From: Prochlorococcus marinus XMU1408
Lineage (GTDB): Bacteria > Cyanobacteriota > Cyanobacteriia > PCC-6307 > Cyanobiaceae
Assembly: GCF_003208055.1 (NCBI RefSeq)
Contig: NZ_QJUE01000002.1
Coordinates: 62,001 to 126,000, forward strand
Length of the DNA: 64,000 nucleotides
Direction: 5' to 3'
Of this stretch, positions 59,341-63,413 are shown piece by piece. Position numbers and translations under genes: made by a program. The notes beneath the pieces are model-generated. The model worked only from the letters and a program-made list of their open reading frames with translations. It was not told the origin of the DNA and ran no database searches. How positions within the stretch are numbered: position 1 is the stretch's first letter; each line of letters starts with the position of its first letter.

Positions 59341-60505
59341 ATGTATTAAGTACGTTTGCATATAAATTTTCAAGCGAGTCAATATTTTGTTGAAGTGTAT
59401 ATTTTTCTTCTACTCTTAAACGAGCACGTCTACCTAACTCGTTGGTAAGTACTTGTTGATCACGCAAAACAGGTAAGAGTGTCCTTAATTGAGATGCGAC
59501 TCCCTCTGTATTTAGTATGATTCCAGCTCCATTTTCAAGGACTTCTCCATCGGCCCCCGCATCTGTCGCTACGCAAGCAGTGCCAGTTGCCATGGCTTCC
59601 AGTAAGGCGATAGATAATCCTTCTACAAGGCTTGGAAGTAAAAAAACCTCAGCGATCTGAAGAAGGGCAACTCTTTTATTTTGATCAGCTTCGTATCCCC
59701 ACCAAAAAACATTATCTTCTTTACTAAATATTGAATTATTTTCAAGTGTAGGTCTTAGTGGTCCATCTCCTACTATTACTAGTCGACATCCTTTTGGTTG
59801 GACAAACCTCCATGCCCGGAGTAAAGCCTCAACGTTTTTCTCTGAAGCTATTCTACCCATATAGATAAAAATTCTTTCAGGACCTAATTTTCTCCTTATT
59901 TCAACTTGAAGGTCGTTGAGTGAATGATTTGAATTAAGGGGTTTCCATTTCTTTATGTCAATTCCATTAGGTATTACATCCAGTCGATTTTCTTTAACGC
60001 CTAGTTTTGCTAGAACTTCTGCTTGCATATCTGAAAAAACTATAACCTTGTCATATTTAGCTAAAGAAGGTGCATAAAGTTGGTAAGTAAGTTGCTGTGT
60101 ATTGGCTGTAAGATTTCTGAGTTTTGCATCGAAAGCTGGGTGAAAAGTTGCAATTAAAGGTAAATTAAGTTTATGACACAGTTCAGGCAGGCGAAAATCC
60201 AATGGTGAAAGAGTCAGACTTGCATGGACCAAGTCAGGTTTAAGTCTAGAGAGAGATTCTCTAAGCTCTCTTTGCGCATTTAAAGAAGGGATTGTATAAA
60301 CCTGAGATTTAATTAAATAAGGAAGGCTTACATCTGGATCATTTGCAAGAAGCGAAGTTTTGTTATTCCCTTCCCTAAGTGGGTTGTCAAAGTGAATAAA
60401 ACTCGTTTGATATCCCCTTTCTCTAAGCTCTTCAGTCGTGCTTAGCCCGTAACAGACGTTTCCGCAAAAAGGTGTTTTTTTGCCTAGCCAGGCGATATGG
60501 GTCAA
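59231..60505 (-). CDS. Family 4 glycosyltransferase
   Basis: A 424-residue GT-B protein. The C-terminal half has IYMGRIASEKNVEALLRAW, RLVIVGDGPLRPTL, and the E-x7-E site LPSLVEGLSIALLEAMATG, then ATDAGADGEV. The acceptor and donor are unknown. The last ~35 residues (after the NVLNTSK region) are Gln/Pro-rich, lie entirely antisense to the conserved end of proC, and are unlikely to be part of the fold. Confidence 0.85.
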   Translation of the reverse strand: MTHIAWLGKKTPFCGNVCYGLSTTEELRERGYQTSFIHFDNPLREGNNKTSLLANDPDVSLPYLIKSQVYTIPSLNAQRELRESLSRLKPDLVHASLTLSPLDFRLPELCHKLNLPLIATFHPAFDAKLRNLTANTQQLTYQLYAPSLAKYDKVIVFSDMQAEVLAKLGVKENRLDVIPNGIDIKKWKPLNSNHSLNDLQVEIRRKLGPERIFIYMGRIASEKNVEALLRAWRFVQPKGCRLVIVGDGPLRPTLENNSIFSKEDNVFWWGYEADQNKRVALLQIAEVFLLPSLVEGLSIALLEAMATGTACVATDAGADGEVLENGAGIILNTEGVASQLRTLLPVLRDQQVLTNELGRRARLRVEEKYTLQQNIDSLENLYANVLNTSKSRPPQPIDGSSQQPRQLLQLKRTSSPQVQGVEEH

Positions 60506-60628
60506 ACTTTAAAAAATCTGGTATTTCAAATTAGCAGCCATCCTATATTTCTTCTCAAACTATTGTTAATAATTAAATAATTTATAAATTAGGGTTTAAA
60601 AATAATAATTGTTTCCAAATCTATGTTT

Positions 60629-61429
60629 TTAATTAGTATTAAGATCATTACTAATTATTACTTCTCTCAACATTTGAAGAGATGTGATTCTTCGTTCTAA
60701 ATGAGTTTCGATCCAGGTTTCAACGATTTTCAATAATTTTAACCATACATGTTTAGGACCTAATAATTTGCCATTACTATGAAACGGCACTTTCTCTAGT
60801 AATAGTCTTTGAAGTAAAGCTAGTTCAGATGGATTCATTTCAATGCTTGCATTAGGGCTCGCTCCAATAGCAAAACCTTCTTCAGGAATAAAGCTGCACT
60901 TCCAACTCCATTTCCCAATAGGAGGTATTAACTTTGAGCCCGATTGACAACAGTTTTGCAGTGGTAAGCAATATCCACCCAGGGCTAATATATGTATGCA
61001 TGATTGAATGCTTATAGCTAAAGCTTGTAAAGAATCAAACTCTGCTTTATTTAAATCGTCTAATCTATTTAAATGAATTAATATAAGTTTAAGTAAATCT
61101 TTTTGTGGGTTTTCATTGCCAAACATAATTATTATTAGCTCTGAAATTGCTTGCGCTGCCGATAGAGTTTCTAAATGCTTACCAAGATTGCCATAACTTC
61201 TAAGAATTTTTATTTGCGTAACTCTTTTTAGATTTTTTTTTCCAACTATATGTAAATCTAACAAATTAAGTGGAGATGTCGCTCCAAGTCTACTTTTTGG
61301 TTTTCTTGCTCCTGGTATTGCAAGACGACATATACCATTTTCCTCAGTTAGTATGGTTAAAAGTCTGTCATTCTCACCAAGAGGTCCAATTTTTAAAGAT
61401 AGTCCTTTTACTCTTTGAGTTAAACTCAT
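60629..61429 (-). CDS. recO: DNA repair protein RecO
   Basis: A 266-residue protein with an N-terminal OB-fold (LTQRVKGLSLKIGPLGENDRLLTILTEE broken here; AIPGARKPKSRLGATSPLNL follows) and a helical C-terminal domain with a partial zinc-binding cysteine set (GGYCLPLQNCCQSG). RecO loads RecA with RecR and anneals strands. Its ATG shares one base with the deoC-like stop (TAATG), indicating translational coupling. Confidence 0.9.
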   Translation of the reverse strand: MSLTQRVKGLSLKIGPLGENDRLLTILTEENGICRLAIPGARKPKSRLGATSPLNLLDLHIVGKKNLKRVTQIKILRSYGNLGKHLETLSAAQAISELIIIMFGNENPQKDLLKLILIHLNRLDDLNKAEFDSLQALAISIQSCIHILALGGYCLPLQNCCQSGSKLIPPIGKWSWKCSFIPEEGFAIGASPNASIEMNPSELALLQRLLLEKVPFHSNGKLLGPKHVWLKLLKIVETWIETHLERRITSLQMLREVIISNDLNTN

Positions 61430-62112
61430 TAATTCTTTTTCTTTTGTTCTTGGGCAATTTCAAAGCCAAAGGTTGTACCGACGTATGTAGCTCCTGATTC
61501 CATGATTTCTATAGCTTGATCAAGAGTTTTGATACCTCCAACTGCCTTGATTGAGCAGCGATTATTAACAATTTTAGAGACTTTTTGAGTTTGATTTTTG
61601 GTTAAAGTTTGACCAAAGCCATTCCCTATTTGAATTCCAGTTGCGCCTGCATCAATTGATGCATTTATTGCTAAGGAAAGTTTTGATGAGTTTAAGAGTG
61701 TATTCCCATCAATTATTACTTTTACTGGAGTACCCAGCTCACTTAGTTGATTTATTTCCTCAGCAAAATTTTCAATATTTCCATCTTCCAATGCAAAATA
61801 ATTTGGAACAAAATCTAATTCCTCTGCGCCATTCTCTATTGCATACTCGGCTTCTTTAAGTTTATTAGAAATTGGTATAAAACCAAAAGGGAAGGCAATT
61901 ACTGATATTAACTTTGTAGTACTTTTGCTCCCTAATCTTTCACGTGCAATCGGTATATTCGAAAGGCTAGTGCATAAACCTGCAAAGCCAATTTGCTGCG
62001 ACCCATTACAAATCTGAATGAGCGTTTCTTTATCTAAATGAGGATTTAAGACTGCTTGATGAATTACGTTAGAGATATTGGAATAAGCTTCTTGCAAACT
62101 ATTTTTACCCAT
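61429..62112 (-). CDS. DeoC-like aldolase-family protein with altered active site
   Basis: A 227-residue TIM-barrel protein clearly of the deoxyribose-phosphate aldolase family, with AIENGAEELDFVPNYFALED, PVKVIIDGNTLLNSSKL and the C-terminal IKAVGGIKTLDQAIEIMESG. The Schiff-base lysine, normally in K-T-S-T-G-F, is missing: the aligned segment is IQIGNGFG, with Gln in its place. The start motif (usually IDHTLLKP) is IHQAVLNPH. The helper lysine in IKAVGG is kept. Aldolase activity is therefore doubtful. It lies between hpf and recO. Confidence 0.8.
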   Translation of the reverse strand: MGKNSLQEAYSNISNVIHQAVLNPHLDKETLIQICNGSQQIGFAGLCTSLSNIPIARERLGSKSTTKLISVIAFPFGFIPISNKLKEAEYAIENGAEELDFVPNYFALEDGNIENFAEEINQLSELGTPVKVIIDGNTLLNSSKLSLAINASIDAGATGIQIGNGFGQTLTKNQTQKVSKIVNNRCSIKAVGGIKTLDQAIEIMESGATYVGTTFGFEIAQEQKKKN

Positions 62113-62123
62113 TTGAATAGTAT

Positions 62124-62708
62124 CTAAACCTTTTCTTGAATCACGCCATAGCCTCCATGAGTTCTCTTGTAAATAACTCGTAACGCTGAGCCTTCTTCCT
62201 CTCTAAATAAATAGAAGTCATGATCAATTAGATCTAATTGGGCTCTCGCTGTCTCAATACTCATAGGTGTCATTTCGAAATATTTACGTCGTACTCCTGG
62301 GCTTGGAAGATGAGGTTCTTTGCCTTTAATTAGTGGATTATCTGAGGAAGAAAATCTTTGAGTTTCTTCATTTTGAATTGATTTTGTTGACTTATTAGTA
62401 TGGACATGGTGTTTATTATGACGCTCTTTATACTTACGTAATTGCCGTGCAAGCTTATTTGCTACTAAGTCAATGCTTGCATATAGATTCTCACTTCTCT
62501 CTTGAGCTCTTATTACAGTTCCATTTGCAAAAACGGTCACCTCAGCTGTTTGTTGTGGAACCCGAGGATTACGAGCGACTGAGAGATGGACATCAGCTTC
62601 CTTCACCATTTCATGGAAATTATGAGTTGCTTTATCAATTTTTGTTTTGGTGTAATCACGAAGTGATGGAGTTAATTCAAGATTGCGTCCATGAATAAGA
62701 AGCTTCAT
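62124..62708 (-). CDS. hpf: Long-form ribosome hibernation promoting factor
   Basis: A 194-residue protein (LrtA in cyanobacteria). An N-terminal HPF domain (LLIHGRNLELTPSLRDYTKT, then FANGTVIRAQERSENLYASI) is joined by a charged linker to a C-terminal dimerisation domain (YFEMTPMSIETARAQLDLID, then GGYGVIQ). It pairs 70S ribosomes into inactive 100S dimers; in cyanobacteria lrtA is light-repressed. Its start overlaps the divergent lipB frame by 18 bases. Confidence 0.93.
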   Translation of the reverse strand: MKLLIHGRNLELTPSLRDYTKTKIDKATHNFHEMVKEADVHLSVARNPRVPQQTAEVTVFANGTVIRAQERSENLYASIDLVANKLARQLRKYKERHNKHHVHTNKSTKSIQNEETQRFSSSDNPLIKGKEPHLPSPGVRRKYFEMTPMSIETARAQLDLIDHDFYLFREEEGSALRVIYKRTHGGYGVIQEKV

Positions 62709-63413
62709 TCTGTTTCGCCTGAATCAGGGCCTAATAGCAACTTAGATCTAACACCTCAACTTGTACAATTTTCTTCGGCTTTTCTTTTTGAACCTAAAAA
62801 TTTTGTGCCGTTTGATACTGCCTTGGGTTGGCAGAAAAATTTTCAGCAAAGCCTTATTGAGAAACCTTTTTCACCACAAGCAGTATGGTTTCTGGAACAT
62901 TTTTCTTGCTACACCTTAGGTAGGGGAGGCGACAAACAAAATTTATTATTTGAAGAAAATCAATCCTCCATGCCAGTTTTTAGGATTGATCGAGGAGGTG
63001 AAGTGACTCATCACATGCCTGGTCAAATTGTTGGATACCTAGTTTTAAATTTAGGTCTACATAAAAAAGATTTATCTTGGTATTTGAGAGAATTGGAACA
63101 AGTACTGATTGATGTTCTTAATTTGTTGGATATTGAGGGGAAGAGGGTAGATGGTTTAACAGGCGTTTGGTGCGAAGATAAAAAGATTGGTTCAATAGGA
63201 ATTGGATGCAAAAGATGGGTGACTCAACATGGATTTTCACTAAATGTAGATTGTGACCTTGTTGGTTTTGAGCAGATAATTCCTTGTGGACTTAATAAAG
63301 TTAAAGTAGGGAAATTGAGTGATTGGATACCTGGCATCAAAGTCTGTGACGTTAAGCCTCTTCTTCGAGAATCTGTGAAAAGACGTTTTAAATTGAACTG
63401 GGAAAACATTTAA
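62691..63413 (+). CDS. lipB: Octanoyl-[ACP]:protein octanoyltransferase (LipB)
   Basis: A 240-residue enzyme with FSCYTLGRGGDKQNLLF, RGGEVTHHMPGQIVGYLVLN, and the catalytic Lys/Cys region IGSIGIGCKRWVTQHGFSLN, IIPCGL. It moves octanoyl groups to lipoyl domains of 2-oxoacid dehydrogenases. The first ~25 residues are unconserved, so a later start is possible, which would remove the 18-base overlap with hpf. Confidence 0.92.
   Translation: MNKKLHSVSPESGPNSNLDLTPQLVQFSSAFLFEPKNFVPFDTALGWQKNFQQSLIEKPFSPQAVWFLEHFSCYTLGRGGDKQNLLFEENQSSMPVFRIDRGGEVTHHMPGQIVGYLVLNLGLHKKDLSWYLRELEQVLIDVLNLLDIEGKRVDGLTGVWCEDKKIGSIGIGCKRWVTQHGFSLNVDCDLVGFEQIIPCGLNKVKVGKLSDWIPGIKVCDVKPLLRESVKRRFKLNWENI

Follow-up and report, generated by a model that had tools for sequence, protein, structure and literature searches.

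The DeoC-family protein encoded on the minus strand at positions 61429 to 62112 of the window (the whole 64,000-nucleotide stretch of Prochlorococcus DNA analysed here) carries a glutamine where deoxyribose-phosphate aldolase (DERA, EC 4.1.2.4) carries the lysine that forms the Schiff base. This substitution is clade-wide and not a local mutation. Alignments and trees show that lysine gave way to glutamine once within the window's family, on the stem of a large clade. The comparisons also show that pocket residues changed together with the lysine, and that the predicted fold, the proton-relay pair, the gene order and the selection on the gene were kept. The glutamine-carrying (Gln-type) DeoC, being intact and under selection, probably has another function or performs its own chemistry in a new way. 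The features concerned are:

60629..61429, minus strand: recO, whose start codon shares one base with the deoC stop (ORF and profile match)
61429..62112, minus strand: DeoC-family protein of 227 aa with Gln161 in place of the imine lysine (ORF, profile match, alignment, predicted structure)
61546..61548, minus strand: codon AAG, Lys189, at the E. coli K201 position on β7, retained (Lys in 121 of 124 Gln-type)
61621..61623, minus strand: codon AAT, Asn164, at the E. coli T170 position, changing together with Gln161 (Asn 91, Asp 30, others 3; n = 124 Gln-type)
61630..61632, minus strand: codon CAA, Gln161, at the E. coli K167 position on β6 (alignment and model; Gln in 124 of 146 family rows)
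61813..61815, minus strand: codon GAT, Asp100, at the E. coli D102 position, kept as an acid (Asp 81, Glu 43; n = 124 Gln-type)
62059..62061, minus strand: codon CAT, His18, at the E. coli D16 position, altered (His 74, Tyr 27, Asp 11, Asn 9, others 3; n = 124 Gln-type)
62124..62708, minus strand: hpf (ribosome hibernation promoting factor, HPF/YfiA family), directly upstream of deoC with an 11-nt gap (ORF and profile match)

The deoC frame begins with ATG and runs intact to a product of 227 aa, as had been predicted. This product scores 129 bits against TIGR00126, the NCBIfam deoC equivalog with a cut-off of 117.3 bits, so that the annotation "deoxyribose-phosphate aldolase" passes automatically. 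Its score against Pfam DeoC (PF01791) is 15.4 bits, below the cut-off of 23.8, which leaves it outside that family, and a whole-genome Pfam search with PF01791 gave zero matches. TIGR00126 matches at E ≤ 0.001 were present in all 55 relatives scanned; among Gln-type relatives, L055 passes with 132.4 bits, and L064 (113.9), L058 (112.9) and L079 (56.2) fall below 117.3. The protein is single copy, its sole match in its own genome being itself, and it is 33–44% identical to those DeoCs of the same family that have the lysine (Lys-type). An AlphaFold2 model built from 55 homologues (pLDDT 95.0, pTM 0.91) has eight barrel strands, and its best solved neighbours in Foldseek are DeoCs (TM 0.90 to 1mzh_A). 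VIA superpositions on the solved DeoC 1mzh_B (Z 33.0, rmsd 1.2 Å, 214 residues) and on E. coli DeoC 1jcl_B (Z 27.2, rmsd 2.3 Å, 220 residues) identify the predicted structure as the (β/α)8 barrel of DeoC. Judged by its sequence, the protein is a diverged DeoC, a vertically inherited cyanobacterial orthologue. Matches to another barrel family, of the DHO dehydrogenase type, were weak (Pfam 26.2 bits against a cut-off of 27, NCBIfam at most 19.5 bits) and would fit a common phosphate-binding end.

In E. coli DeoC the Schiff base is formed by K167 (PMC6016325; see also PMC8403123, PMC6244999), which is described as non-exchangeable without loss of function; K201 lowers the pKa of K167 and acts with D102 in a proton relay, and D16, T18, C47 and K201 line the pocket (PMC6016325). 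When E. coli K-12 DeoC serves as the alignment control, K167 aligns to Q161 of the window protein on strand β6, D102 to D100, K201 to K189 on strand β7, T170 to N164 and D16 to H18. Similarly, in each of the three phmmer alignments displayed against solved DeoCs, K-T-S-T-G-F stands over Q-I-G-N-G-F. Together with the codon CAA, these alignments bear out the original prediction that glutamine replaces the Schiff-base lysine within this segment. The altered N-terminal and KVIIET segments that it named are real (the window protein has IHQAVL, and KVIID for KVIIE), and the barrel framework and second lysine that it took to be retained are found as a confidently predicted barrel and as K189. As a possible refutation, the prediction had named another lysine at the imine position. 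None was found among the 124 Gln-type proteins, in which the sole near-fixed lysine column is K189 (98%), followed by K84 (74%), K195 (70%) and K67 (62%). Of the attributes of a functional DERA, the protein has the relay of D102 and K201, as D100 and K189, and lacks the Schiff-base lysine on β6, where Q161 stands. Canonical chemistry on a β6 lysine is impossible in the Gln-type protein, and loss of the canonical imine mechanism is supported.

The lysine is one of seven columns that differ between 68 Gln-type and 21 Lys-type rows of the same family, a comparison from which genus g18 and most rows of the window's genus were left out to cut their weight. From Lys-type to Gln-type these switches are H19Q, S50L, V72I, E135D/N, K161Q, S164N and A186C. 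Six of the seven lie at the catalytic mouth (the final three residues of a strand or the four that follow it), a placement that is non-random against all positions (hypergeometric 0.001) and falls short of significance against other conserved positions (Fisher p 0.07). K189 is kept in 121 of the 124 Gln-type family rows and in 35 of the 36 named Gln loci among the best 80 of 223 relatives, and position 100 is an acid in all 124. G165, F166, G192 and T213 are invariant across the 124 rows, the phosphate-site residues G192, G193, G212 and T213 are invariant in 37 Gln-type rows, and C47 is present in 88 of 124. The presence of Asp at the D16 position in 11 Gln-type rows suggests that the D16 change came after the loss of the lysine. 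As Lys-type DeoC has K189 and Asp100 too, their retention alone is no proof of catalysis free of the imine lysine. Three Gln-type rows have lost K189 as well (L037 and L139 to Gln, L152 to Thr). The genus g18 (L079, L093–L121) is very diverged within the Gln type, with Asp164, mostly Glu100, and Asn135; its member L079, for all its low deoC score, is still a predicted barrel (pLDDT 92.6).

A DeoC homologue was found in 371 of 400 genomes of the window's family, and in 249 of the 251 with completeness of at least 90% and low contamination; four of the family genomes listed have two matches each. Among the 146 family genomes read at the imine position, 124 have Gln, 21 Lys and one Ile (L038, from the single-contig genome G043, with the K201 and D102 equivalents kept). 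In 53 genomes from other families of the class, the residue is Lys in 48, Met in 3 (all of family f4) and Gln in 2 (both of family f11). The original prediction raised the question of whether the substitution is fixed across the clade: in the window's genus, Gln stands in all 34 rows, 34 of the 41 genomes searched having a match, and the clade that carries it is far wider than the genus. The named loci among the best 80 of 223 relatives divide into 36 with Gln, which are Prochlorococcus for the most part, Prochlorococcaceae, two presumably marine Synechococcus (AG-679-B05 and a metagenome bin) and Cyanobacteria bacterium TMED177, and 44 with Lys, which are Synechococcus (WH 5701 and others), Cyanobium, Vulcanococcus and unclassified bins. 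One Lys-type locus, L257, lies on a picocyanobacterial contig that carries the label of a Bifidobacterium breve MAG, probably through a mistake in binning.

Trees built after removal of the trait columns place the 77 Gln or Ile rows of the family in one group (SH-aLRT 100, 120-row tree), and the corresponding group in the 50-row tree, from which g18 was left out, has support of 100/99. Several tree rows have an odd letter make-up, and some branches are long, chiefly that of g18, with 3.47 changes per column in the 120-row tree. The starred branches of the 50-row tree require three Gln changes (5–95% bootstrap range 3–3), which include the nested Ile row and the f11 pair, and the Gln of f11 is on this basis a separate event. 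The f4 Met pair is a further separate event (100/100). By these trees, f11 and f4 lost the imine lysine separately from the window's family; that 0 of 200 trees had a single change proves little by itself, given the nested Ile row. Horizontal replacement is unlikely, because the Lys-type relatives have the same gene order and the family tree contains the clade as a nested group. The two f11 DeoCs (L086:2971-3657, L186:1974-2657) resemble the window protein in having Gln at the imine position and a gene that precedes recO, but in them K201 has become His and D102 Asn, whereas T170 is kept. L186 scores 212.9 bits to the deoC equivalog despite three changed catalytic residues. In the f4 DeoCs (L088, L184, L194) the imine lysine is Met, and the K201 and D102 equivalents are kept in all three.

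The order hpf–deoC–recO on one strand is found in 123 of 124 Gln-type loci, in the Ile row and in 20 of 21 Lys-type loci of the family, and it suggests an operon. In the window the deoC stop and the recO start have one base in common (TAATG), and among the 68 Gln-type loci (of 124) with a placeable RecO start, 62 have an overlap of 1 or 4 bases. The overlap behind the original statement that deoC is translationally coupled to recO is therefore there, and coupling is what such an overlap would suggest. Of 53 cyanobacteria from other families, 35 also have recO directly after deoC on one strand; this order may reflect an old link of DeoC with DNA repair. A scan of positions 60400–63000 revealed no promoter-like site upstream of hpf or deoC on the minus strand, and its 5 sites compare with 8.3 in shuffles. 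In a transcriptome study, Prochlorococcus deoC transcripts are listed as enriched in the first 5 h of extended darkness (PMC5974335, Table 2), which would fit expression with the hibernation factor.

The search for deoxynucleoside partners covered DeoB and pyrimidine-nucleoside phosphorylase (the deoA product), the usual, though not strictly defining, partners of a functional DERA. DeoB (TIGR01696) was over the cut-off in none of 149 genomes and pyrimidine-nucleoside phosphorylase (TIGR02644) in none of 119, the window's and the Lys-type genomes included in each case, compared with 6 of 14 controls for either. It appears that the usual substrate supply is missing. The DeoB matches seen in 56 of the 149 genomes were all partial and below the cut-off, and were taken as phosphoglycerate mutase-type relatives; the pyrimidine phosphorylase matches in 81 of the 119, likewise all below the cut-off, were taken as anthranilate phosphoribosyltransferase. 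A nucleoside-deoxyribosyltransferase-like gene (PF05014) was over the cut-off in 57 of 119 genomes, including the window's, where it lies outside the window (G000:C2:416645-416989, E 1.2e-29), and it is a possible source of deoxyribose phosphate.

The reading favoured here, held at about even confidence, is that of a remodelled phosphosugar enzyme that uses K189 and the acid at position 100 and forms no imine on β6. The cyanobacterial DeoC would have been remodelled once, in the ancestor of the clade that holds Prochlorococcus and some, presumably marine, Synechococcus, with the imine lysine becoming Gln in one family event and neighbouring pocket residues differing alongside. The mouth of the barrel may still bind a small phosphorylated aldehyde or sugar, and the pair of K189 and Asp/Glu100 could serve as acid and base in a reaction without an imine on β6, such as the enolisation, isomerisation, hydration or elimination of a C3–C5 phosphate. 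The setting might be a dark or DNA-repair-linked state, since deoC sits between hpf and recO, although this position fits many roles. A new role for the Gln-type DeoC, as the original prediction proposed, is likely, but whether it is a non-aldolase role is less plain, as an imine relocated to K189 would still be aldolase-like.

It is possible, if doubtful, that the protein has remained a class I aldolase, which may use a different donor and in which K189 on β7 is the Schiff-base lysine and Gln161 fills the old place. The fuller form of this idea, in which the move of the imine from β6 to K189 goes with a rebuilt pocket (Q161, N164, Q19, D/N135), a new aldehyde-phosphate substrate and a dark or repair state, is likewise improbable. 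Directed evolution of KDPG aldolase reportedly moved the lysine from β6 to β7, with a Lys to Gln change, and f4 made a like change independently, to Met, with the K201 and D102 positions intact. K189 is the sole near-fixed lysine, and the K201 position belongs to the same pocket as D16, T18 and C47 (PMC6016325). Furthermore, the "pseudo" kinase POMK is reported to owe its activity to a catalytic lysine that has migrated, like that of WNK1; like the window protein, both lack the family-defining lysine and have another lysine near the site, but they are kinases, and the activity of the migrated lysine is shown for them (PMC10211241) and proposed for K189. Exchange of E. coli K167 is nevertheless stated to abolish function although K201 is present (PMC6016325), K189 is missing in three Gln-type genomes, and the absence of DeoB and pyrimidine-nucleoside phosphorylase above the cut-off seems to leave such an aldolase without its usual substrate supply.

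A non-catalytic phosphosugar-binding protein, acting as a sensor, scaffold or regulator that binds its ligand without chemistry, is also unlikely, even though the invariance of G192, G193, G212 and T213 speaks for it and K189 and D100 could serve binding. The f11 DeoCs lend it some weight, because with His for K201 and Asn for D102 the proton relay is gone there, in addition to the imine lysine. In the Gln clade, however, both relay members are kept, which goes beyond the needs of phosphate binding.

The original prediction offered decay as the other half of its explanation, and pointed to dN/dS as a check. By the Nei–Gojobori method, a simple one that saturates and whose ratios are to be taken as guides, the median dN/dS of deoC is 0.212 in the window's genus (525 of 561 pairs usable), 0.192 in g18 (418 of 435), 0.153 in g5 (21 of 45), 0.119 in g35 (22 of 66) and 0.176 in g30 (6 of 6). 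These five Gln-type groups thus span 0.12–0.21, as compared with 0.317 in the Lys-type rows of the family (210 of 210 pairs); the values for f11 and f4 are 0.049 (1 pair) and 0.059 (3 pairs). The neighbours give 0.122 for recO and 0.086 for hpf in the same 33 rows of the window's genus, so that deoC is constrained there, yet less than recO and hpf. Neutral decay, in which the function is lost and the gene drifts while it is kept as a leader of recO, might draw on this weaker constraint, on the recO overlap as a reason to keep the frame open, on the long branch of one group, on the missing partners, and on the description of DERA, from S. elongatus work, as conserved but non-essential in cyanobacteria (PMC5464585). 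It is nonetheless very unlikely, as medians of 0.12–0.21 lie well below 1, the Lys-type relatives are not more constrained, and there are zero in-frame stops among the matches listed. The same residue, Gln, stands in 124 of the 125 family rows without Lys, and G165, F166, G192 and T213 are invariant in those 124. With a homologue in 249 of 251 genomes, a single clade-wide change and a conserved pocket, the decay half of the prediction is not supported. An alignment artefact, in which the imine lysine would stand elsewhere or the ORF would be no DeoC, can be set aside almost entirely, for although PF01791 gives only 15.4 bits, the three phmmer alignments, a 200-row alignment and the confident predicted fold agree and offer no alternative conserved lysine.

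With DERA as defined by TIGR00126, the window protein shares an orthologous sequence, the predicted barrel, the phosphate-site glycines and the K201 and D102 equivalents. It differs in the Gln at the imine lysine, in the changed D16, E141 and T170 equivalents, and in that deoB and pyrimidine-nucleoside phosphorylase were not found in its genome group. The literature titles and abstracts searched hold no description of a lysine-less DeoC in cyanobacteria, which does not imply its absence from print. Prochlorococcus is called the most abundant photosynthetic organism in the transcriptome study mentioned above, which places its deoC in the category of sugar degradation (PMC5974335, Table 2). Should the lineage indeed lack the lysine, this reading of Prochlorococcus deoC is unsafe. 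The Lys-type DeoCs of the same family (Cyanobium, Vulcanococcus, Synechococcus WH 5701) still have the K-T/S-G-S/T-G and D-H motifs and are its un-remodelled relatives; with the same gene order in 20 of 21 loci, the two types form a natural before-and-after pair, in which a move of the imine lysine or a change of chemistry is directly testable.
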